Source: Exiguobacterium sp. s146
Lineage (GTDB): Bacteria; Bacillota; Bacilli; Exiguobacteriales; Exiguobacteriaceae
DNA: 64,000 nt
Assembly (NCBI RefSeq): GCF_018618415.1
Contig: NZ_JACSMA010000001.1
Coordinates: forward strand, 372,001 to 436,000
Direction: 5' to 3'
The translations under genes and the position numbers were made by a program. How positions within the stretch are numbered: position 1 is the first letter of the stretch; each line of letters opens with the position of its first letter. This document shows, one piece after another, positions 5,894-17,884 of the stretch. Under the pieces are notes generated by a model that was not told where the DNA came from, ran no database searches, and saw only the letters and a list, made by a program, of their open reading frames with translations.

Positions 5894-6919
5894 ATGAAAA
5901 AACTAGTTTCAATTATAGTTCCAGTATATAATTCAGAAAATTTTTTGTTTGAAAATATAAGTAGTATTTTAAATCAGACTTATTATAATATTGAAGTTCT
6001 ATTAATTAACGATGGTTCTTCTGACCGCAGTCTAAGTATATGTAAGGAATTAGCTCAAAAAGATCAAAGGATATTTGTAATCAACCAAGAAAATAAAGGT
6101 GTATCAGCGGCTAGAAACAAAGGTTTAGAAATAGCCCAAGGACATTACATACTATTTGTAGATTCTGATGATATTTTAGAAAAAAATATGATTATGGGAT
6201 TATTAAGAGGTTTTGAAAATAATATTGATTTAGTCATATGTGGATATAATGTTCAGCATTTATCTAAAGAAAAAAAAGTTAAGAACGAAAAAATAATTTT
6301 CGAAAGAAAGATAGTTAGTGTTGAAGACATCTCTCGAAATTACTGGGAATATTTCCGTAAAGGTGCAATAAATCCTCTTTGGAATAAATTATTCAAATCA
6401 TCTATTATAAAGAACGAAGGATTAAAATTTCCCGAAAATATCAAAATGGGTGAAGATGGATATTTTGTAGTGAATTATTTAAAATCATGCCAGAACATAA
6501 TGTTTACGAATGATATTTATTATAATTATATGGTTTATCCTTATCAAAGTTCTCAAAAAATATTTCCTGATTATTATGAAATGATGAGAATTAATTTCGG
6601 AATGATTGAGTCTTTTTTAAATCAGTATAATGGATTAGATAATGAACAGAATTTCAAATATCATCAAAATGAACTTTTCAAGGTCCTGAAACATTCTATA
6701 GTTTCTATTGAAAAGAGTAAACAAATTGATAAAAAACATAATATAAAATATATATTGAATGAGAACGAAGTTACTCGAAAAATCAGCTATCAGAATATTT
6801 CAAGTAAAAGAAATAAACTATTTTTATTTTTTTTCAAAAGAAAAAATACTTTGATTATTCGAATCTTAATTTCTGTGGAGAATTTAATCTTCTTATGGAG
6901 GAAAAAATGGAAAAAGTGA
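5894..6919 (+). CDS. Glycosyltransferase family 2
   Basis: Inverting GT-A glycosyltransferase of 341 residues. It opens with the canonical VSIIVPVYNSENFL, followed by LLINDGSSDRS, the acceptor loop GVSAARNKGL, and the metal-binding FVDSDD. A GEDGYFV segment supplies the likely catalytic base. The C-terminal part is basic and contains a weakly hydrophobic stretch that may associate with the membrane. ATG 5894 follows GGAAGTG. Its 3' end overlaps the start of the next GT2 by 13 bp, so the pair is probably translationally coupled. It resembles EpsJ/CpsI-type enzymes from capsule loci. Confidence 0.88.
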   Translation: MKKLVSIIVPVYNSENFLFENISSILNQTYYNIEVLLINDGSSDRSLSICKELAQKDQRIFVINQENKGVSAARNKGLEIAQGHYILFVDSDDILEKNMIMGLLRGFENNIDLVICGYNVQHLSKEKKVKNEKIIFERKIVSVEDISRNYWEYFRKGAINPLWNKLFKSSIIKNEGLKFPENIKMGEDGYFVVNYLKSCQNIMFTNDIYYNYMVYPYQSSQKIFPDYYEMMRINFGMIESFLNQYNGLDNEQNFKYHQNELFKVLKHSIVSIEKSKQIDKKHNIKYILNENEVTRKISYQNISSKRNKLFLFFFKRKNTLIIRILISVENLIFLWRKKWKK

Positions 6920-7899
6920 GTGTGATTATACCGATTTTTAATGCTGAAAATATACTTTCAAAATGTCTTACTAGTTTAGTACACCAAACCTATAAGAATA
7001 TTGAATTTATATGTGTTAATGACGCTTCTAAAGATCAAAGTATTGAAATTATTAAACAATATGCTGCAAAGGATAATCGTTTTATTATTATTGATAAAAT
7101 AGTTAATGAAGGGGTCTCTAGTGCAAGAAATTGTGGAATTAAGATTTCTTCAGGGAAATATATTATGTTCGTGGATTCTGATGATTATCTAGAAAAAACC
7201 TACATTGAAAATATGGTAGAAGAAATGGAGGAAAAAAATTCAGATATAGTGGTTTCTGGATACCAAAGAATACAAAAAAACGCTTCAAGCTTTATTAAGT
7301 TAAATAATTCAAACTATAAAAGCTTAGCCGAAGCTGTATTATATCTAATGAGAAGTAATGTTTTTGGATACACTTGGAATAAAATCATCAAACGTAAAGT
7401 TTTAATAGATAATGAAATTTTTTTTGATGAAAGTACAAGTCTTTTTGAAGATCAACTATTCTATATGGAGTACATTAAAAACATAAAGAGAATAAATACA
7501 TCTGCTGCAATCGGTTATAATTATGTGATTAACGATAATTCTTTATCTAATTCTTATAGAACTTCAAGGCTCACGCTAATGAATCAAATGATGACTTCTT
7601 TAGAACGATTTATGGAAAAAATTAATATGGATGAGAAAAGCAAAAATGAAATATTATATGACTATTCTTACAAAAGCTTGCATGAGTGTATAAGACAATT
7701 AGCATTAAACAAGAATGCAACGGAGATGAAAAAAGAGATAAAAAAATGGAAAGAAAAATATATAATTAATTATTTTATTAATAATTATAAAAAAATGGGA
7801 AGAGAACGTAAAAGTCAGATTTTATATTTTTTATTAAAAAGTAGAAATGAATGGTTGTTAGTTTTGTTCTATAAAACATTTGTATTTATTAGGAGGTAA
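6907..7899 (+). CDS. Glycosyltransferase family 2
   Basis: Second of two tandem GT2 enzymes, 330 residues, with VSVIIPIFNAENIL, CVNDASKDQS, GVSSARNCGI and FVDSDD in the usual order, then FEDQLFYMEYI as the probable catalytic-base segment. It is clearly related to the neighbour at 5894 over the first 120 residues, suggesting an old duplication. An in-frame ATG at 6895 is part of the sequence TATGGAGGAAAAAATG. The GGAGG there is better used as ribosome site for ATG 6907, so the shorter start is preferred. The gene ends one base before the ATG of the next gene. Confidence 0.88.
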   Translation: MEKVSVIIPIFNAENILSKCLTSLVHQTYKNIEFICVNDASKDQSIEIIKQYAAKDNRFIIIDKIVNEGVSSARNCGIKISSGKYIMFVDSDDYLEKTYIENMVEEMEEKNSDIVVSGYQRIQKNASSFIKLNNSNYKSLAEAVLYLMRSNVFGYTWNKIIKRKVLIDNEIFFDESTSLFEDQLFYMEYIKNIKRINTSAAIGYNYVINDNSLSNSYRTSRLTLMNQMMTSLERFMEKINMDEKSKNEILYDYSYKSLHECIRQLALNKNATEMKKEIKKWKEKYIINYFINNYKKMGRERKSQILYFLLKSRNEWLLVLFYKTFVFIRR

Positions 7900-7900
7900 A

Positions 7901-9067
7901 ATGCTAGCACTATTAATATTATTTTTTATCTTTATACTTTTTTTTATTGTTATACCAAAAAGAGTTCTGGGAATATATTTTTTGATATTTACTATTCTTT
8001 TATCTTTAATAAGTTTTTTCATAAAACCTTTTGAAACAATGGATTTATTTAGACATTTTATAATTCTTGAAAGTCTTAGATCAGGAGGATGGGATGCATT
8101 AATTAATTTCGATTTATTCGAATCCCTACCTTTATTCGGATACTATTTTTATGTCATCAGCCTTCTACCTTATAACGGTTTTTTACCTGCAATTACAACA
8201 TTTTTAGTCTATACATCGTCTTTTAGTATTCACATTAAGACATTTCGTGAATTAAAATCACCAAAAATTGTAATTTTTCTAGGGGTATTATTATTTATCA
8301 CTACTTTTAATTACTTAGCTATGGTGAGCGGGATTAGAAACATGTTGGCCTTCGCCATTTTTGCATACGTACTTTACTATGATTTAGTATATAAAAAGAA
8401 CGCTTTTTACAGTTGGATATTTTATATTTTATTATGCTTTCTACATTCTAGTGTGATTATATTAGTACTCTTGAGAATATTGTTGGTGTTTTATAATAAA
8501 ATGTCTTCGAAAATAATAATTCCTGTTCTTTTAGGATGGTCTTTTTCTTTAGAATTCATTTTAAAAATAGTAGCGAATTTAACATATATTGATTTCTTTA
8601 ATCTTCTTTATATGCAAATACTAGGCTATAGTGCAGTAGATTATTATTCTTTACTTCCAATTATAAACAAGGTGCTTATTATATCTTTGATTTTCATAAT
8701 GTCTTTATTTAATATATATAACTTCGAACATATCCCAAAAGGCTTTAAAAAAATACAAACCTATATTTTAATTGTGCTATGTTTTACGTTAGGATCCGTA
8801 TTGAATTATAATATTTTCATTAGATTTTCCGATTTCTTATCTATTCTTTCACCAATCGTAATTATGTTAACAGCAGAAGTAATTAGAAGTATTTCTCATG
8901 CTAATTACGACCTAATGTCTAGTAAGAATAATAATAAAGTTAGCATCTACTTTAACCTCATTAAATTAATGATTCTATCAATTTCTGTCTATTCATTTAT
9001 ATACTTATTGATGTTCCAGTATAGATATGTAATTTTATCCAGTAATTTTTATTTTACTACAATATAA
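7901..9067 (+). CDS. EpsG-like polysaccharide polymerase (Wzy-type membrane protein)
   Basis: Polytopic membrane protein of 388 residues with about ten hydrophobic segments. The DLFRHF motif after the second segment, followed by LRSGGWDALI, is characteristic of the EpsG family of putative repeat-unit polymerases. A GIRNMLAFAIFAYVLYY segment matches the conserved central region of that family. The start is ATG 7901 directly after AGGAGGTAAA, only one base after the preceding stop; a longer in-frame start inside the upstream gene has no ribosome site. It is the last gene of the AT-rich operon, and no clear rho-independent terminator follows before the IS relic begins at about 9081. Confidence 0.82.
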   Translation: MLALLILFFIFILFFIVIPKRVLGIYFLIFTILLSLISFFIKPFETMDLFRHFIILESLRSGGWDALINFDLFESLPLFGYYFYVISLLPYNGFLPAITTFLVYTSSFSIHIKTFRELKSPKIVIFLGVLLFITTFNYLAMVSGIRNMLAFAIFAYVLYYDLVYKKNAFYSWIFYILLCFLHSSVIILVLLRILLVFYNKMSSKIIIPVLLGWSFSLEFILKIVANLTYIDFFNLLYMQILGYSAVDYYSLLPIINKVLIISLIFIMSLFNIYNFEHIPKGFKKIQTYILIVLCFTLGSVLNYNIFIRFSDFLSILSPIVIMLTAEVIRSISHANYDLMSSKNNNKVSIYFNLIKLMILSISVYSFIYLLMFQYRYVILSSNFYFTTI

Positions 9068-9080
9068 AATGTCAATAAAA

Positions 9081-9367
9081 GTTTAAAACTGGTTGTCCTC
9101 GTTTTTTGATAATCCTCATCTTAGGGAGTTGGCTATCTAAAAAGATCAAAGGGATTTCTTATATTGAACGAGGTTTTTCGAAACTGGAAATATTCGATGT
9201 GAATCGTCGCGATGGAAGGTAGAAGGTATCAGTTCATTTGCCATGGAAATAGGTCATGTGCATCCTGTCCTCAATGCAATTCTTTTAACATCGTATCCAC
9301 AGCGGTACGTCAGGACGTTGAAGGATGACTACGTGTTCGGGATGGATGTAAAACTACGGATTCAGGC
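9081..9367 (+). pseudogene. Old ISL3-family element, 5' part (relic)
   Basis: The left end GTTTAAAACTGGTTGTCCTC matches the inverted repeat of the intact ISL3 copy (10105-11770) with substitutions. From about 9205 a broken frame reads YQFICHGNRSCASCPQC, which aligns with FQFICHGKQSCAPCPHC of the intact transposase; the DNA for the downstream zinc-finger region is also recognisable up to CTACGGATTCAGGC. Stops and frameshifts show it is dead. The sequence is interrupted at 9367 and resumes at 12248 (see the element 9368-12247). Confidence 0.75.
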
Positions 9368-9389
9368 GAGGGCACTGAAAAACTTCAAA

Positions 9390-9640
9390 TGATTTTGAAC
9401 AGAGGAGCGTCGTCCCGTGAGGAATGGCGCTCCTCTGTTTTCATCGCCCTTCAGCCGCCCTATCCGGCACGCCGCTTTCCTGGGGCGGGCGTCGAGCCGC
9501 ATCTCGACGTCGTCGTTGCTGGGTCTCGCCTTGCCCGCTGATTCCCCGGGAGTCGGCGTGCCCTCGGGCGGTGGCTGCACGCCTCCTGCATTCCGGACTA
9601 TACTGGCAGTAACCAACCAACTTGGAGGCGTGTAGACGTC
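9390..9640. other. GC-rich palindrome-dense segment, no convincing gene
   Basis: Sharply GC-rich DNA inside the IS mosaic with several perfect stems. These are ACAGAGGAGCG/CGCTCCTCTGT (9399-9409 with 9428-9438), GTCGAG/CTCGAC (9491-9508), GGCGTGC/GCACGCC (9555-9561 with 9577-9583) and CACGCCTCC/GGAGGCGTG (9578-9586 with 9624-9632). Open frames exist on both strands but have no ribosome site and resemble no family I know. A structured RNA or IS-end element is more likely than protein. It might belong to a transposon-associated noncoding RNA; I cannot name it. Confidence 0.4.
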
Positions 9641-9674
9641 AAGTTGATTTTGACACTTTTTGCTCGTTTGCCTT

Positions 9675-10104
9675 TTACACTTCTGCCGAAAATAATGATT
9701 TTCGGTTCCTCATCCGATGACTGTCGTCATCACTATGTATGATTTCGACGCGATGAAGTAAGCGGTCCAATGTCGCAGTCGTGATGCCCTGGTCTCCGAT
9801 CAATTCGCCCCATTGGTCGGGGCTTTTGTTCGAGGTCAGGATGATCGAGCTGCGCTCATAAAGGTGGTTGACGAGATGGAAGAAGAGATTGGCTTCTCGT
9901 TGGTCCATCGCCATGTACATAAGGTCATCGATGATGACCAGGTCCGAATCTCGCAACCTTTTTAACTGGATCTTGTGTAGTGCAAAATAGGAGTGGTTCT
10001 TATGTGTAGTGCAAAATAGGAGTGGTTCTTACGCAATGTTGGTGAGGTAGTGATGCCGACATTATGGGAATAAAATCAAAAAGGATTGATTCCTGTCAAC
10101 AGCG
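9675..10104 (-). pseudogene. istB: IS21-family IstB ATPase relic (C-terminal part)
   Basis: IstB is the AAA+ helper ATPase of IS21 transposition. The minus-strand frame from about 10004 to 9675 contains LVIIDDLMYM (Walker B), SSIILTSNKSP (sensor 1 region) and DRLLHRVEII near the C-terminus, all standard for IstB/DnaA-like ATPases. The Walker A half is absent. A 29-bp tandem duplication at 9976-10033 shifts the frame, and upstream codons (SPTLRKNHSYFALH) persist only weakly before the ISL3 insertion at 10105. No partner istA is adjacent, but an istA relic lies at about 14.5 kb. Confidence 0.8.
9976..10033. repeat. Perfect 29-bp tandem duplication inside istB relic
   Basis: The 29-bp unit beginning TGTGTAGTGCAAAATAGGAG occurs twice without a gap or mismatch (9976-10004 and 10005-10033). 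On the minus strand it lies in the istB frame, and because 29 is not a multiple of three it breaks that frame. Identity of the copies indicates a recent slippage or recombination event. Confidence 0.9.
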
Positions 10105-11770
10105 GTTTAAAATTGGTTCTTCCTCACTTTTGATGAAACGCTTCATTCCTGTGGTTATTTAGACATCGATTCATATTTCAGTATAATAACGAGCCTCAAG
10201 TGATATTCAATACTTTGATGCGCAACAGTTCCAATCCTGCCCGACCATACATTTGGCGTTTGGTCGTCTTGAGTCGGTTGACCTGCCCCTCGACAATGCC
10301 GTTCGACCAGGGCAGCGTCATCCCGAGCCGGATGGCGTCGATGTCCCCTCGTATATAGATTGCGAAAGAAGATAGCGAGGCTTCGTTCATCCGTTCCGCC
10401 TGTTCACACCACCATAAGATATCCTGTTTGGACGTCACTTCGTTGAAAAGGTTCTTGAACGAACGGACGAGGTCGTTCAACACCTTCAAGAAAGGATGGA
10501 TGTCCAGTATCTTTATGAGAAGTGGTTTGTTAGAAGGTTCGTCCTCCCAGAGGACTTTCTGGATGATTCGTCGATTGATGTTTATCTCATGCGGGACTGC
10601 TTTTTTCAATCTTGCCACATAAGGTCGAAACGTACTGATTCCACGGGGATATCCTTTCCGTTTCAACGTCCGGTACATCCATTCGGTCGTCCTACCTTGA
10701 CGGATCCATCTGACGTTGTCTGCCTTGTAGATGTCTGCGCTGTGTCGTCGATGTGACCGACTGATTCTTGGTGGCTCTGTCATCTGTAGGTATCTACGGC
10801 ACGTCTTTGGATCGATATGGTGACGTCTGATCAACTCGGAGATCGGAACGCCCTGTCTTGCATCCTGTTGTACTGCGAGAACAAGCGTCCATTTTCTTCT
10901 TTCAGCGTCTGTCAGTTCACGTTCGGTGATAAGACCGTCCGGTTCGAGAAGGATTTTTTCGCTAGATGGAAGACGTCGCTTCAAGATGTCCTCCATTTTC
11001 TTTCCTAAGTTATGAAACAAGTGCCATCGGTCACTCACCTGTTGAATCGTCTCATCGGCCAAACGGATGGCCTCCCGAAACTCCATGGACCCGTCTCGTG
11101 CCACCACCTGTATGGTGAGATGCGAACGGATCCAAGCACAGACGGTTTTGACATCCCGAGAGGGAAGTAAGGCGATTGGGCGTCGTGTCTCTAGATCACA
11201 GATGATTGTCCCGTACTTTTTTCGTTTTCTCCAGGCCCAGTCATCAATACCGACCACGCGGGGGGCAGCCACCTTCCGATTATGTTGTGAGCGTTTCAAC
11301 AGTCGGAGTAGCGTACTATCGCTGATATTGTTCAAGATACGTTCCAGCCCGATCGCACTCATCCCACTCAAGAGCCTCAGCAGCCCACGTTCTAAACGGA
11401 TTGTTCTGCGGGAGTGTGGTCGACACAGGGAGGGAAATCTCTCCGTAAAGATGCTTGAGGGACAGCTTGGTTCGTCGCAGAAGAAACGTCTTGCCTGAAT
11501 CCGTAGTTGCACATCGAATCCGAACACATGCTCATCGTGCAATGTCCTGATGTATCGGCTGTGGACACGATGTGAGCTTTTAGTGCAATGGGGACAGGGT
11601 GCACACGACTGTTTTCCATGACAAATGAACTGAAACGCTTCATCACAACGGTTCACCTCGACCACTTCTAGTTCTGGAAGAAACTCGTTTAACATGATCG
11701 ATCCCTTCAATCCTTTTAGTAAACTAATTCCCGAAGATTACCTTCATCAAAAGTGAGGAAGAACCATTTT
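10105..11770 (-). mobile_element. ISL3-family insertion sequence, apparently complete
   Basis: A single transposase gene is enclosed by inverted repeats with a perfect 23-bp core (GGTTCTTCCTCACTTTTGAT plus GAA at 10115-10137; complement at 11743-11765), extending outward as TTAAAAT on both sides. The direct repeat AACAGCG flanks it (10098-10104 and 11771-11777), close to the 8-bp duplication expected for ISL3. It is inserted at the junction of the istB relic and the IS1182-type tail. A much older relative lies at 9081-9367 plus 12248-12890. Confidence 0.85.
10196..11695 (-). CDS. ISL3-family transposase
   Basis: DDE transposase of 499 residues, of normal ISL3 length. An N-terminal zinc-ribbon has CPHC followed by a second CDEPSCPSS pair. 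The conserved catalytic-core segment reads VVGIDDWAWRKRKKYGTIICDLE, then AIRLADETIQQVSDRWHLFHNLG (second acidic site region) and WSNGIVEGQVNRLKTTKRQMYGRAG at the C-terminus, which holds the final glutamate. No internal stop or frameshift is visible, so the enzyme may be active. The start was taken as ATG 11695 (GAAGGGA upstream); a TTG 15 bp further upstream is the alternative. The same-strand upstream region contains the right inverted repeat only. Confidence 0.92.
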   Translation of the reverse strand: MLNEFLPELEVVEVNRCDEAFQFICHGKQSCAPCPHCTKSSHRVHSRYIRTLHDEHVFGFDVQLRIQARRFFCDEPSCPSSIFTERFPSLCRPHSRRTIRLERGLLRLLSGMSAIGLERILNNISDSTLLRLLKRSQHNRKVAAPRVVGIDDWAWRKRKKYGTIICDLETRRPIALLPSRDVKTVCAWIRSHLTIQVVARDGSMEFREAIRLADETIQQVSDRWHLFHNLGKKMEDILKRRLPSSEKILLEPDGLITERELTDAERRKWTLVLAVQQDARQGVPISELIRRHHIDPKTCRRYLQMTEPPRISRSHRRHSADIYKADNVRWIRQGRTTEWMYRTLKRKGYPRGISTFRPYVARLKKAVPHEININRRIIQKVLWEDEPSNKPLLIKILDIHPFLKVLNDLVRSFKNLFNEVTSKQDILWWCEQAERMNEASLSSFAIYIRGDIDAIRLGMTLPWSNGIVEGQVNRLKTTKRQMYGRAGLELLRIKVLNIT

Positions 11771-11781
11771 AACAGCGTTGA

Positions 11782-12150
11782 TTACATGGCGGACGCAAGA
11801 ACGTCGGACAGAACCAAGTGGAGAGCCATTTCTTCAACATCGAGCTGTGCAAGCAGTGCCCCTTGCGCGAAGGGTGTTACAAGGACGGGGCCAAATCGAA
11901 GTCCTATAGCGTGTCATTGAAATCGAGGGAGCACAGCGAACAGTTCGAATACGAGCAGACCGATGACTTCAAGGATCATCGTCGGAAGCGTTTCGCGATC
12001 GAGCCGAAGAACAGTCAACTGAAGAACCCCCAAGGTCTGGCGCGCAACAAGACGCCAGACCTGAAAGGCATGACCTTACAGAGCGTGATGGCGATCGTCG
12101 CGGTCAATCTGAAGCGAATCATCACCCTCCGGAAAGAAGAAACAGATTAA
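11782..12150 (+). pseudogene. IS1182-type DDE transposase, C-terminal fragment
   Basis: The frame opens after a stop at 11779 and runs to the natural stop. It contains the cysteine motif CKQCPLREGCY followed by RRKRFAIEPKNSQLKNPQGL, in which the late glutamate of the DDE triad and the downstream conserved basic stretch are recognisable from IS1182/IS5-like DDE_Tnp_1_6 proteins. The N-terminal two thirds, with the first two catalytic aspartates, are missing. About 80 bp after the stop lies the right inverted repeat at 12232-12247, so this is the original 3' end of the outer element. Confidence 0.8.
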
Positions 12151-12159
12151 AGGCAAGGA

Positions 12160-12206
12160 AAAAAGGCGATCGTCCCGACACAAGTTGGGCCAATCGCCTT
12201 TTTCAC
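12160..12206 (+). terminator. Hairpin at 3' end of IS1182-type fragment
   Basis: AAAAAAGGCGAT ... ATCGCCTTTTT forms a strong stem followed by T residues just downstream of the transposase stop. It is a rho-independent terminator, effective in either direction. Confidence 0.75.
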
Positions 12207-12247
12207 GTTCTCACGCTCGGATAGAGCTGGGGTTTTTCAGTGCCCTC

Positions 12248-12890
12248 ATTCAGGCAAGGCGTTTTTTTCTGCAGCGACCCATCCTGTCTCTAAAGCATTT
12301 TCACGAAGAGGTTTCTTGACCTGTGTCGATCACACTCCCGTAGAATGTCTAGTTTTGAACTTAGGTTGCTGAGGCTATTGCATGGGTTGAGCGTGGTCGA
12401 GTTAGAGTATATCTTGAACAATATCAGCGCTAATACGGTGCTCCGAGTGTTGAAACGCTCAGAACAACATCGAATCATGCCTGACTCTCGCATGATTGGT
12501 ATCAATGACTGGGATTGGAAAAACAAAAAAATATGAGACGAGCATCTGCGATTTGAGAACAGGCCGTTCGATTGAACTGCTGCCGTCGCGAGATACGGGG
12601 ACCGTGTTGGAATGGCGCAACAATAAGACGCCGATTCATTTTGGTGTCTCGAGGCGGCTTCTTGCCTTATGTAGGGGTAGCCAGTCTGGCATCCCATCCT
12701 GTCATAGACGTCCTCAATCGTTTTCATCTGGTCCAGAACCTTAGGAATTTGTATGAAACGGCGGTCATCAGCCATAATTCAAACGGTATCAAGTTCAATC
12801 AGAAGTTCGAAGATTTCTTGATCTATTTTAGTAGATTTTTTGATGGGCTATTCCGACATTCTTCCTCAATAAAGCGTAAGAGGCTTTAAC
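12248..12890 (+). pseudogene. Old ISL3-family element, continuation of relic
   Basis: Direct continuation of the relic that ends at 9367. ATTCAGGCAAGGCG matches the intact copy's ATTCAGGCAAGACG. Translated pieces LRLLHGLSVVELEYILNNIS and RMIGINDWDWKNKK align with LRLLSGMSAIGLERILNNIS and RVVGIDDWAWRKRK of the intact ISL3 transposase. A frameshift at about 12530 moves the match to YETSICDLRTGRSIELLPSRD, and a last match (VLNRFHLVQNL) ends near 12760. The 3' third and the right inverted repeat are absent. Confidence 0.78.
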
Positions 12891-12960
12891 GCACGATCAT
12901 TACCAGGCCGACCGCGCTCGGTCGTCCGGATTCATTCCCTACAGTAAGAGCAGCTCGTCA

Positions 12961-13084
12961 TGTTGGCGAACCAGTTGTTCGAGCATTGGGACCAGTATGA
13001 AGAAGTGGATATTATCCCGTATACAGGGGACTCAACCCCGGACCGCATCTTCCATTCATACGCCGATGTCCATCACAAAGGAAA
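12961..13084 (+). other. Unidentified coding relic
   Basis: Between the ISL3 relic and the galM relic a short frame reads MLANQLFEHWDQYEEVDIIP followed by SYADVHHKGKQVEG before degenerating. The codon pattern is that of backbone genes, so it is probably the remains of a gene, but I do not recognise the family. Confidence 0.35.
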
Positions 13085-13378
13085 GCAAGTCGAAGGATGA
13101 AGACATTGTAAAAGGTGGCGACCTCAATCGTCCCTCCATCTTGAAAGATGGGACGACACGATTACACGATTGGGTGAGTGGGTGCGTCATGGTCATCTAA
13201 CTTCTTCATTGAAGAGACGCCGATGACGTTCGGGGAGCGGCAGAAGCTTAGCACCATCTGTCTCGAAGCACAATCGTTTTAGGATGCAGCAAATCATTCA
13301 AACATCGCTACATCAATTGAACTGAAATAGGGGAAAGTTGTATCGCTCACGGACGATGTATCGATTTGGGGTGGAATA
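13085..13378 (+). pseudogene. galM (aldose 1-epimerase) relic, C-terminal part
   Basis: The broken frame KGGDLNRPSILKDGTTRLHD matches KAGGLDHPFILKDGVTRLHD of the intact galM at 16922. It continues after a stop and a small gap as EETPMTFGERQKLSTICLEA versus EETPVTLEGRQKHSAICLEA, and ends SRTMYRFGVE versus SRTVYRFGVD. At least three in-frame stops or deletions interrupt it, and the N-terminal two thirds are missing. It is a decayed paralogue or duplicated 3' end lying about 4 kb from the functional copy. Confidence 0.82.
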
Positions 13379-13381
13379 ACG

Positions 13382-13435
13382 AAAAAAGCAGAACAAAGCT
13401 TGGCTTGAACGTGGCCAACTTCTTTTCTGCTTTTT
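13382..13435. terminator. Bidirectional rho-independent terminator
   Basis: AAAAAGCAGAA at 13383 pairs with TTCTGCTTTTT at 13425, with T runs on both sides. It can end both the galM relic transcript (+) and the acetyltransferase transcript (-). Confidence 0.75.
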
Positions 13436-13517
13436 AGTTCACTTGATTTACATTTTGTTTTCAAGATTTTGATATTATATGTTTACGACTTGCATCGTAT
13501 TTTGGACTAATGGCACG

Positions 13518-14006
13518 TTAAAAGTTTCCATAATGAAGATTATTATTTGGGTCTTGGTCAGGGATATCTTTTAGTCGTTTAGCAGGTATGCCAGCATAAA
13601 CGCCGTTCGAAATACAATCTTTTGTAACCACCGAGTTTGCACCGATTATCACGTTATCCCCAATAAATATTGGCCCAACTATTTTAGCTCCCGCTCCGAC
13701 AAAAACATTTTTACCGATGATTGGGTGTCCGAATTCCCTGCCGTCTTGAACTCTCATCTTTCCATGGTTTCCTCCGATTGTCACTTGTTGCATGATTACA
13801 GAGTTTTCACCAATTGCTGAATTAGGGTGTATGACCAGACCTAAACCGTTATGCCCTAACTTTGTAGTTGGGTGAATTTCGGAAGTGGGTGGAATATCGC
13901 ACGAAAAAAGAATTCTATTACATATCGTTATGAGGTTAGGAATTACAGGTATTCTTCTCATGTGTAATTTCCTTGCGAATAAATAGCTTTTCATAATTGC
14001 GTTCAT
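13518..14006 (-). CDS. Serine acetyltransferase-like (left-handed beta-helix) O-acetyltransferase
   Basis: A 162-residue acyltransferase of the hexapeptide-repeat family, probably using acetyl-CoA. The C-terminal half shows CysE-like features: LGLVIHPNSAIGENSVIMQQ, VTIGG, then repeated I-G-x4-I/V turns (PIIGKNVFVGAGAKIVGPIF, GANSVVTKD) and the closing GIPAKRLK. It is much shorter than housekeeping CysE (about 220 residues or more) and lacks its N-terminal helical domain. It therefore more likely decorates a polysaccharide than makes O-acetylserine. The gene is AT-richer than the backbone and isolated between relics, as expected for a leftover of a surface-polysaccharide gene block. ATG 14006 follows GGAGGTTACC. 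Confidence 0.8.
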   Translation of the reverse strand: MNAIMKSYLFARKLHMRRIPVIPNLITICNRILFSCDIPPTSEIHPTTKLGHNGLGLVIHPNSAIGENSVIMQQVTIGGNHGKMRVQDGREFGHPIIGKNVFVGAGAKIVGPIFIGDNVIIGANSVVTKDCISNGVYAGIPAKRLKDIPDQDPNNNLHYGNF

Positions 14007-15149: not shown

Positions 15150-16034
15150 TTACTGTTCTTTGTTCAATCCTTCAATCAACTTCCGACTCCGCTCTCTTGA
15201 CACGTGAAGATAGCGCTCGGTCGTATTGATTGACTTGTGTCCGAGCAAGTCGGCTACGCCAAGAATGTCTTGGCTCTGATTGTACAATGTTGTCGCAAAG
15301 CTATGCCGCAACATATGGCTCGTCAGCTTCACGCCGAACTGTTCTTGCGCGATTTTCTTCAAGTCAATGTTCACAAAGCCGGGCTGGACGATGCGTCCGG
15401 TCGGCATCAAGAAAATGCGATTCGAATCTCCGACGTTCGGTCGATGCGTGGCGATATACTTCTTTAATTCCGTCGTAAGTCGAGGTGTCATCGGGACATG
15501 ACGTGTCTTGTCGCCTTTTCCTTTTCGGACCGTCAACAACCGCTCTTCGAAATTGATGTGGTCGAGCTCCAAATTCAGAATCTCACTGATTCGTAATCCG
15601 GCATCCCCTCCTACGAGATAAATCGTATAGAGCGTGTAATTGCGGGCGTGATACAGCACCGTGTTCATTTGTTCGCGTGTAATGATTGTTGGTGGTTCAC
15701 TGACACCTTCCCGCGTGACAATTCGACTGAACGGATTATGATTCATCCAATGCTGATCGATAGCGAACGTGAACAGCCCACGGATGCGCATAATATAGGA
15801 TTTGACCGTATTGTCGGCCATCCCGCTGAGGTGTTTTTTGTATGGGATGGCATGGTTCGTCTCGTCGATCTCTTGGATGTACACTGCACCGTGCTCGGCC
15901 GCATAGCGGGCGAAGCGCAATAACGAATTGCGCGTGCTTTTCAGCGTCGTTTCGGGCGCTTCCTTTCGTTCTCTCAAGTCCGTTAAGTACAAGTCGATGG
16001 CATCATTCAGTAACACGTGTTTCATGTCATTCAC
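15150..16034 (-). CDS. Tyrosine recombinase/integrase (XerC/D-like)
   Basis: Site-specific DNA strand exchange enzyme of 294 residues. The N-terminal SAM-like core-binding domain covers about residues 5-105, the catalytic domain about 118-290. The full catalytic set is visible: Arg148 (GGDAGLRISE), Lys173 region (RKGKGDKTRHV), His240 and Arg243 (HMLRHSFAT), His266 (LLGHKSI) and nucleophile Tyr275 (TTERYLH). Its start overlaps the stop of the upstream sigma-like gene by 4 bp (ATGA), implying translational coupling. It lacks the Arm-binding domain of phage integrases and sits at the border of the IS-rich block. A role in excision or inversion of a mobile segment, or a stand-alone DNA switch, is possible; chromosome-dimer Xer enzymes are not usually in such an operon. 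Confidence 0.9.
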   Translation of the reverse strand: MNDMKHVLLNDAIDLYLTDLRERKEAPETTLKSTRNSLLRFARYAAEHGAVYIQEIDETNHAIPYKKHLSGMADNTVKSYIMRIRGLFTFAIDQHWMNHNPFSRIVTREGVSEPPTIITREQMNTVLYHARNYTLYTIYLVGGDAGLRISEILNLELDHINFEERLLTVRKGKGDKTRHVPMTPRLTTELKKYIATHRPNVGDSNRIFLMPTGRIVQPGFVNIDLKKIAQEQFGVKLTSHMLRHSFATTLYNQSQDILGVADLLGHKSINTTERYLHVSRERSRKLIEGLNKEQ

Positions 16035-16912: not shown

Positions 16913-16921
16913 GTGAGTCAG

Positions 16922-17884
16922 TTGAGAGAAGCAACGATTGAGAACAAGAACGGCATGCGGCTGTCGGCCATTTCGTATGGGTGTGCCATGACCGAATTGA
17001 CTGCACCGGACCGTGACGGCAACATGGACTCCGTCATCTTGAAGTACGGCAGTCCCGAGCAATATCTTGAGAACCCGGTCTATCTCGGTTCCGTCGTCGG
17101 ACGGATTGCCGGACGGATCCGTAACGCGGAGATTGATGGCGTGGCCTTGACCCCAAGCGAGGCCCCGCATCATATCCACGGTGGAGACGACGGCATCACG
17201 TTCCGGCATTGGGACATGGACGCCGAAGGACAGGCGATCACGTTTACTTATCTAAGTCCGGATGGGGAAGAAGGCTATCCCGGCAACGTTACGTTCAAGG
17301 TGTTGTATGAGTTGACGGACGATAACGAGCTCGTAGTCACGATGACGGCTGCGACGGACAAACGGACGTGGGTCAACTTGAACCATCATAACTATTTCAA
17401 TCTCGGCGGACGGCCGACAATCCATGATCACGTGCTGACACTGCCATCGGATCACGTCGCACGGCTCGATGACGAGTCGTTGCCGACGGGCGAATTACTT
17501 GAAGTGGAATCGACACCGTTCGATTTTCGGGACGGGAAGCGAGTCGGGGAGGCAATTACGTCAGAGGACGAGGCGATTGCGAAAGCTGGTGGCCTTGATC
17601 ATCCGTTCATCTTGAAGGACGGGGTGACGCGATTGCACGACCCGGTGAGCGGACGCGTCATGGACGTCGAGACGAACCAACCGGTCATGGTCGTCTATAC
17701 GGCCAACTTCCTCAGTGAAGAGACGCCGGTGACGCTCGAGGGGCGGCAGAAGCATAGCGCCATCTGTTTAGAAGCTCAAGCACTGCCGGATGCACCGAAC
17801 CATCCAGACATCGCCACATCGATTGAACTGAAACCGGGGGAGTTATATCACTCGCGGACGGTGTATCGGTTTGGTGTAGATTGA
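16922..17884 (+). CDS. galM: Aldose 1-epimerase (mutarotase)
   Basis: Interconverts alpha and beta anomers of aldoses such as galactose or glucose in the cytoplasm. The 320-residue protein shows GalM signatures: GRIAGRI (substrate region), IHGGDDG with the catalytic His, LNHHNYFNLGG, LPTGELLEVE, DHPFIL and the late glutamate in HSAICLEAQALPDAPN. I prefer TTG 16922 because GTAGGTG lies 6 nt upstream; an in-frame GTG at 16913 is the alternative. A shared terminator at 17897-17939 separates it from the convergent sugar ABC transporter, which may feed it. A decayed second copy of its 3' end lies at 13085-13378. Confidence 0.9.
   Translation: MREATIENKNGMRLSAISYGCAMTELTAPDRDGNMDSVILKYGSPEQYLENPVYLGSVVGRIAGRIRNAEIDGVALTPSEAPHHIHGGDDGITFRHWDMDAEGQAITFTYLSPDGEEGYPGNVTFKVLYELTDDNELVVTMTAATDKRTWVNLNHHNYFNLGGRPTIHDHVLTLPSDHVARLDDESLPTGELLEVESTPFDFRDGKRVGEAITSEDEAIAKAGGLDHPFILKDGVTRLHDPVSGRVMDVETNQPVMVVYTANFLSEETPVTLEGRQKHSAICLEAQALPDAPNHPDIATSIELKPGELYHSRTVYRFGVD

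Follow-up and report, generated by a model that had tools for sequence, protein, structure and literature searches.

Nested insertion sequences on an Exiguobacterium chromosome and hairpin-apex insertion by an IS1182-family clade

The locus and its elements

The window (the whole stretch of 64,000 nucleotides analysed here, positions 372,001 to 436,000 of contig NZ_JACSMA010000001.1) belongs to the chromosome of Exiguobacterium sp. s146, whose draft genome comprises 22 contigs, and lies inside a contig of 1.27 Mb. It contains a mosaic of insertion sequences (ISs) preceded by an ORF (7880-9067) that is membrane-protein-like and found no family match in Pfam or NCBIfam. Comparison with copies at other loci indicates that the mosaic consists of five elements nested in one another, three of them from the ISL3 family (hereafter ISL3-A, ISL3-B and ISL3-C); the breakpoints 9630/9631, 9974, 10093/10094 and 11786/11787 are all element ends known from other copies. 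A nested IS mosaic is in itself a common, ordinary kind of locus. The features are as follows.

5894-7899: two glycosyltransferase genes, left of the mosaic
9070-9367, plus strand: ISL3-A relic, left part, beginning TGTCAATAAAAG; transposase direction plus; aligns with ISL3-B
9360-9367: target duplication ATTCAGGC, left copy
9368-9630, plus strand: IS1182-family element, left part, with inverted repeat (IR), terminator-like hairpin, structured leader and three codons of a predicted transposase ORF
9398-9439, plus strand: terminator-like hairpin at the IS1182 left end, an inverted repeat followed by TTTT; terminator role predicted from sequence alone
9461-9564, plus strand: structured palindromic leader (model R1, 97.7 bits), the sole match in the window
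9631-9973, minus strand: IS21 right end with the C-terminal part of istB (istB 9675-9956); remainder missing
9974-10093, plus strand: 5' end of ISL3-C, a second ISL3 lineage, cut one base 5' of the likely ATG
10094-11786, minus strand: intact ISL3-B, with ends TGTCAACAGCGG... and ...GATTACA; transposase ORF 10196-11710
11787-12247, plus strand: IS1182-family element, right part, with transposase C-terminus (11818-12150), terminator-like hairpin and IR
12160-12203, no strand assigned: terminator-like hairpin after the IS1182 transposase, an inverted repeat with an A-run and a T-run; role likewise predicted
12248-12255: target duplication ATTCAGGC, right copy
12256-12884 (end approximate), plus strand: ISL3-A relic, right part, truncated; placed by DNA match, protein match and an ORF read by eye
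12885-13376 (start approximate): decayed galT-galM remnants, in pieces 70-90% identical to genes of two relatives

When the flanks of ISL3-A are rejoined with one copy of ATTCAGGC, 436 of 588 nt (74%) are identical to ISL3-B and the alignment runs unbroken through the insertion site; ATTCAGGC occurs once at the corresponding place in the intact ISL3-B. This unbroken alignment with a single ATTCAGGC in an intact ISL3 demonstrates that the IR-bounded element inserted into an older ISL3 copy, and it bears out the initial annotation, which had proposed an ISL3 relic interrupted at 9367/12248, continuous with the intact copy once joined, with a perfect 8-bp target duplication on either side of the element. 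The left part of the relic is 73% identical to a copy in genome G006 (L051). In the right part the DNA match ends at about 12562 and the protein match at about 12615, and the stretch from there to 12884 is a by-eye reading of the ORF 12572-12889. Extension of ISL3-A to 13376 was considered and discarded, the stretch matching galT-galM of other genomes. The mosaic had been placed at 9081-12890; its right end was about right, with the gal remnants starting at about 12885, while its left end needs correction to 9070, where the relic begins. An open galM-like gene is present at 16913-17884 of the same window.

The element that interrupts the relic has IRs identical at 16 of 16 bp (9368-9383 and 12232-12247), as originally described, and the same IRs bound copies of 1,830-1,833 bp in relatives (L050, 1,555 bp), so that they are genuine element ends. 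With at most one mismatch, the 16-bp IR has 40 matches in 11 of 19 Exiguobacterium genomes (own genome included) versus 8 for a reversed-pattern control. The left part is 89-95% identical to the copies L042-L049 (92.1% to L048) and the right part 91.5% identical to L048, relative to which 1,109 bp are missing between 9630 and 11787. L048 has a single transposase ORF of 493 aa that scores 338.1 bits with the IS1182 model NF033551 (cut-off 270). The start of the window ORF was set by comparison with L048, and its C-terminal piece matches model positions 389-488 with 69.6 bits, short of the cut-off since only a fragment is present. We found no other match to this transposase type in the own genome. 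Judged by the copies in relatives, the 16-bp IRs bound a single IS1182-family element, and the "IS1182 tail" is part of its right end. The tail had been listed among the contents of the IR-bounded element as a separate part, together with istB and an intact ISL3; these contents are all present, but the tail is not distinct. Similarly, the palindrome-rich segment, taken for a component of its own, was rejected as a separate element, since in related copies it is the 5' leader of IS1182.

The IS1182 transposase ORF is interrupted behind codon 3 by the IS21 piece. Over 345 bp this piece is 96% identical to an IS21 on plasmid pCXA of Exiguobacterium aurantiacum, with which it shares the terminus TGTAGACG. 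The pCXA copy is flanked by a 5-bp duplication, CCTTG; the window differs in holding just one IS21 end and part of istB, whose C-terminus scores 99.4 bits with NF038214 (cut-off 200). The adjacent ISL3-C fragment is 97% identical to L057 and 96-100% identical to L058, and has at its outer end a perfect 29-bp tandem duplication (9974-10002/10003-10031). That 9975-10093 might be an end of IS21 carrying tandem end repeats was considered and dismissed, L057 and L058 both showing an ISL3-type leader. This fragment had been overlooked: the nesting reported initially is real and the two ISL3 copies, one dead and one intact, are both there, but the four layers are five elements and a third ISL3-family piece has to be added. 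By eye, a tyrosine-recombinase gene of the window (15150-16034) closely resembles L057 4043-4921, near ISL3-C in G012, which suggests a common neighbourhood.

The ORF of ISL3-B (504 aa) scores 267.8 bits with NF033550, the NCBIfam ISL3 model (cut-off 180), over model positions 3-368 of 370, and has the Zn-ribbon/DDE domains of the family. Its ends, TGTCAACAGCGG and TGTAATCAACGCTG, recur at five other loci in four genomes, with divergence beginning immediately outside. The motif AACAGCG (10098-10104 and 11771-11777), given in the initial annotation as flanking the intact ISL3 on both sides, lies within these constant ends and recurs with them next to different outside sequence; it is therefore not a target duplication but an internal direct motif of ISL3-B. 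No target duplication of ISL3-B exists in the window, the left flank being ISL3-C and the right flank IS1182, and the sole ISL3-B copy with both flanks readable, in G006, has a 5-bp duplication (CTCCG). The target duplication of the ISL3 family is 8 bp. ISL3-B thus departs from its family both in this 5-bp duplication of one readable relative and in ends that carry a direct motif outside a long IR; it is an ISL3 by its transposase only, and its junctions are unlike those of a fresh insertion. A short direct motif outside the IRs is seen at each end in both ISL3 lineages (AACAGCG, or TGCAAAATA; L058 484-2210, approximate).

Insertion history

It is very probable that the locus arose by serial nested transposition into dead DNA followed by deletion, and that the IS1182 element, from a clade that targets hairpin apices, here used an atypical site. 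ISL3-A would have integrated two bases past the stop codon of the ORF 7880-9067 and then decayed (step 1), and the IS1182-family element would have entered it, duplicating ATTCAGGC (step 2). Step 2 and the element ends can be read directly from the sequence comparisons, and step 1 follows from step 2. The polarity and breakpoints of the pieces point to the later events: IS21 would have landed in the IS1182 transposase ORF behind its third codon (step 3), ISL3-C in istB (step 4) and ISL3-B just 5' of the ISL3-C start codon (step 5). A deletion with one end precisely at the right-hand terminus of ISL3-B would then have taken the rest of ISL3-C and of IS21 and the 1,109 bp of IS1182 (step 6); alternatively, recombination of two ISL3-B copies would have had the same outcome. 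The missing target duplication of ISL3-B points to such a deletion anchored on ISL3-B or to recombination between two copies, and a single deletion anchored on its right end, as proposed, would account for the loss of inner parts from ISL3-C, IS21 and IS1182 alike. IS21 and ISL3-C could also have been truncated before step 6. The order given in the initial annotation (old ISL3, then the IR-bounded element, then the intact ISL3) agrees with this scheme. Among related genomes, at one genome per species, neither an empty site nor an intermediate step was found.

It is possible, though we judge it unlikely, that the inner block (IS21, ISL3-C and ISL3-B) came about through homologous recombination between ISL3-B copies or was imported as a ready-made mosaic. 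Such an origin would fit an ISL3-B with differing flanks and no target duplication, as well as the situation in genome G001, where some 60 bp separate the ends of IS21 and ISL3-C, which there stand in a different order; this proximity could reflect a shared history outside the proposed steps. However, every inner junction falls at a genuine element terminus, which is what nested insertion would predict, and no second copy of ISL3-B was found in the own genome. An assembly chimera, in which repeated IS copies were misjoined, is conceivable in a draft genome but highly improbable here, given that no second copy of these ISs was found in the genome (other copies exist for the leader repeat only), that the window lies within one large contig and that the target duplication is perfect.

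Hairpin-apex insertion by the IS1182 clade

It is the outermost IS1182 element, rather than the mosaic itself, that leads to a strong regularity in structure-directed insertion. Thirty sequences (29 loci and the window) were inspected for element ends, and 16 proved two-ended; 13 of these (12 relatives and the window) have perfect duplications of 8-9 bp, and the other three (L083, L091 and L094), which have no perfect duplication, were excluded from the hairpin counts. A transposase search of 398 Bacilli genomes gave a match at E <= 1e-60 in 33. The 29 loci inspected from this search comprise three that repeat Exiguobacterium copies, 19 with a duplication of 5-9 bp and seven without usable ends (L180, L184, L185, L192, L195, L196 and L197). 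The boundaries of the 19 were placed by eye at conserved termini, not blind, the folds being already visible.

In 30 of 31 relatives, from 14 genera, a hairpin of at least 7 pairs has its loop centre no more than 1.5 nt from the centre of the duplication, as compared to 248 of 3,200 random positions in the same loci (7.75%) under the same centring. The result changes little with the stem threshold (at least 5 pairs, 30/31 vs 339/3,200; at least 8, 29/31 vs 203; at least 10, 26/31 vs 139), which was lowered from 8 to 7 pairs after L183 had been seen to have 7. L190, one of the 30, has a weak A/T stem of -2.5 kcal/mol. A strict palindrome score at fixed offsets had separated sites only weakly, missing bulged or centre-shifted hairpins, and folding took its place; the nulls first obtained by folding were permissive (21.6% at 5 pairs or more, 14.5% at 8 or more), because their pool held IS-rich loci and apex centring was not required. 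The hairpin is absent at two of the tested sites, L046 and the window's own IS1182 insertion, which fell in ISL3 coding sequence with no hairpin centred on its duplication. An AAAAC/GTTTT symmetry noticed by eye at the window site scores 6, or 9 if the best of seven offsets is taken; we do not claim it as a hairpin, since 13.5% of random sites score at least 8 and 6.1% at least 9.

Members of the clade thus normally enter terminator-like hairpins at the tip, with duplication of the 5-9 bp around it. In the simplest view, the transposase would recognise a folded hairpin or cruciform and cut symmetrically about its tip. The same pattern might be sought in a mere preference for terminator-rich intergenic regions, the survivors being selected because genes were spared; many sites do look terminator-like by eye, and insertion there should cost little. 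Selection for harmless regions, however, would not fix the position to the nucleotide, and with the duplication and loop centres coinciding so closely at nearly all sites we regard this explanation as very improbable.

Exiguobacterium harbors two further IS1182 types, named here after genomes G007 and G005. The G007-type transposase is about 25% identical to the window type and scores 490.4 bits with NF033551. The first frame of the G005 type (204 aa) matches model positions 11-174; being a fragment, it scores 180.7 bits and stays under the cut-off. By eye, this transposase spans two frames (L110 839-1453 onward), as do those of L123 and L128, and either decay or a programmed frameshift would explain this. 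In these two types (eight copies each), the duplication is the whole hairpin, 21-33 bp long, in 15 of 16 copies when the ends may shift by as much as 4 bp; L112 has no duplication. A miniature inverted-repeat element (MITE) of about 556-597 bp has hairpin duplications of 20-27 bp in four of eight copies, while the other four gave duplications of only 9-14 bp.

Passages of two papers (PMC4923244, PMC5678879) describe how IS1272 and TnSha1, IS1182-family elements of staphylococci, target inverted repeats, several of them terminators, without a sequence consensus, and how insertion of IS1272 removes the stem-loop and leaves no target duplication. PMC4923244 also cites a review by Siguier and colleagues (2015) for some IS1182 members targeting palindromes; on the strength of that citation, palindrome targeting as such is already known. 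The window clade resembles these elements, in the passages concerned, in its family and in its inverted-repeat targets. In contrast to IS1272 as portrayed there, it leaves the arms of the hairpin in place and duplicates 5-9 bp at its tip, while the two other Exiguobacterium types duplicate the entire hairpin; the window has an 8-bp duplication and 12 relatives 8-9 bp, so the IS1272 kind of stem-loop replacement does not apply to them. The model in Fig 13 of PMC5678879 sets two alternatives, pathways b (stem-loop-duplicating) and c (loop-duplicating), beside the IS1272 deletion, and as depicted in that figure both outcomes match the kinds of duplication counted here. There the pathways are alternatives under consideration, whereas the Exiguobacterium outcomes were counted in natural copies. 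None of the titles and abstract openings listed in searches of open-access literature described apex-centred IS1182 insertion with loop duplication.

A structured leader repeat

The leader of the window element (9460-9564) folds with a free energy of -59.3 kcal/mol (z -4.24; opposite strand z -3.99). Its sequence is one of the 34 used to build model R1, and an Rfam search of 9000-13600 at E up to 1 returned nothing on the leader and one match at 9693-9713, far below the gathering score. In all three IS1182 types similar leaders precede the transposase and lie on its strand, and those of the window and G007 types share 76% DNA identity while the proteins share only about 25%.

Covariation in the 34 sequences is consistent with a conserved fold. 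In all, 97.6% of the cells pair and both partners vary in 12 of 30 pairs; two-sided cells number 125, compared with 45 after shuffling and 10-27 after sliding. Several points weigh against a conserved fold: the number of pairs with two-sided change in this set does not exceed that of shuffles (93 of 500 reach the value), further pair types fall below them (500 of 500 reach the value), and the 34 sequences are related. A wider set, A2, fitted to model R1 and with Exiguobacterium sequences among its rows, has two-sided change in 20 of 30 pairs, a value reached by 0 of 500 shuffles.

With scoring limited to 13 candidates in any one genome, model R1 matches 73 of 299 Bacilli genomes, which fall in 25 of 118 genera. 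For 30 leader loci from this search, transposases were sought with a profile built from three of these IS1182 transposases; an IS1182-like transposase lies within about 1.5 kb in five of them and in none of the other 25, and in L144 the nearby transposase is not downstream of the leader. Conversely, at the 29 transposase loci the leader lies within the element in three Exiguobacterium loci and in L182, and outside it in L175; L195 has a leader with element ends undefined. The leader is therefore a repeat family tied to IS1182 elements and not confined to them. None of the titles and abstract openings listed in searches of open-access literature described this repeat.

That one structured leader is shared by the three types points to a possible regulatory or insulating part of IS1182 elements, and our guess is that it may act as an insulator or regulator. 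A tentative wider reading, which we regard as somewhat less probable than even, is that IS1182 transposases of Bacilli read the shape of a hairpin and not its sequence, that the height of the cut (apex, base or removal) gives three scars, and that the leader, whose conservation exceeds that of the transposase, propagates as a repeat and has a function in the cycle as an insulator, a regulator of transposase expression or a substrate. If this is true, one mechanism would leave a duplicated loop after an apex cut, a duplicated whole hairpin after a base cut and a removed hairpin in IS1272. The apex-centred sites in 30 of 31 relatives across 14 genera, beside sister types with whole-hairpin duplications, form a natural data set on structured-target choice by a DDE transposase, and the models proposed for IS1272 become testable with native elements of an environmental genus.

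The structured repeat, about 105 nt long with covarying stems, is seen in IS1182 leaders, in MITEs and as solo copies (L102, L110, L070, L118-L121). At the MITE loci L070 (904-1471), L071, L072, L073, L074, L076, L077 and L081, a structured leader is present at both ends in inverted orientation. In another genus, an IS1182 copy at L182 (~1176, ~3050) occupies a hairpin apex, the hairpin looking by eye like the structured repeat itself, and this copy carries a leader of the structured-repeat family.
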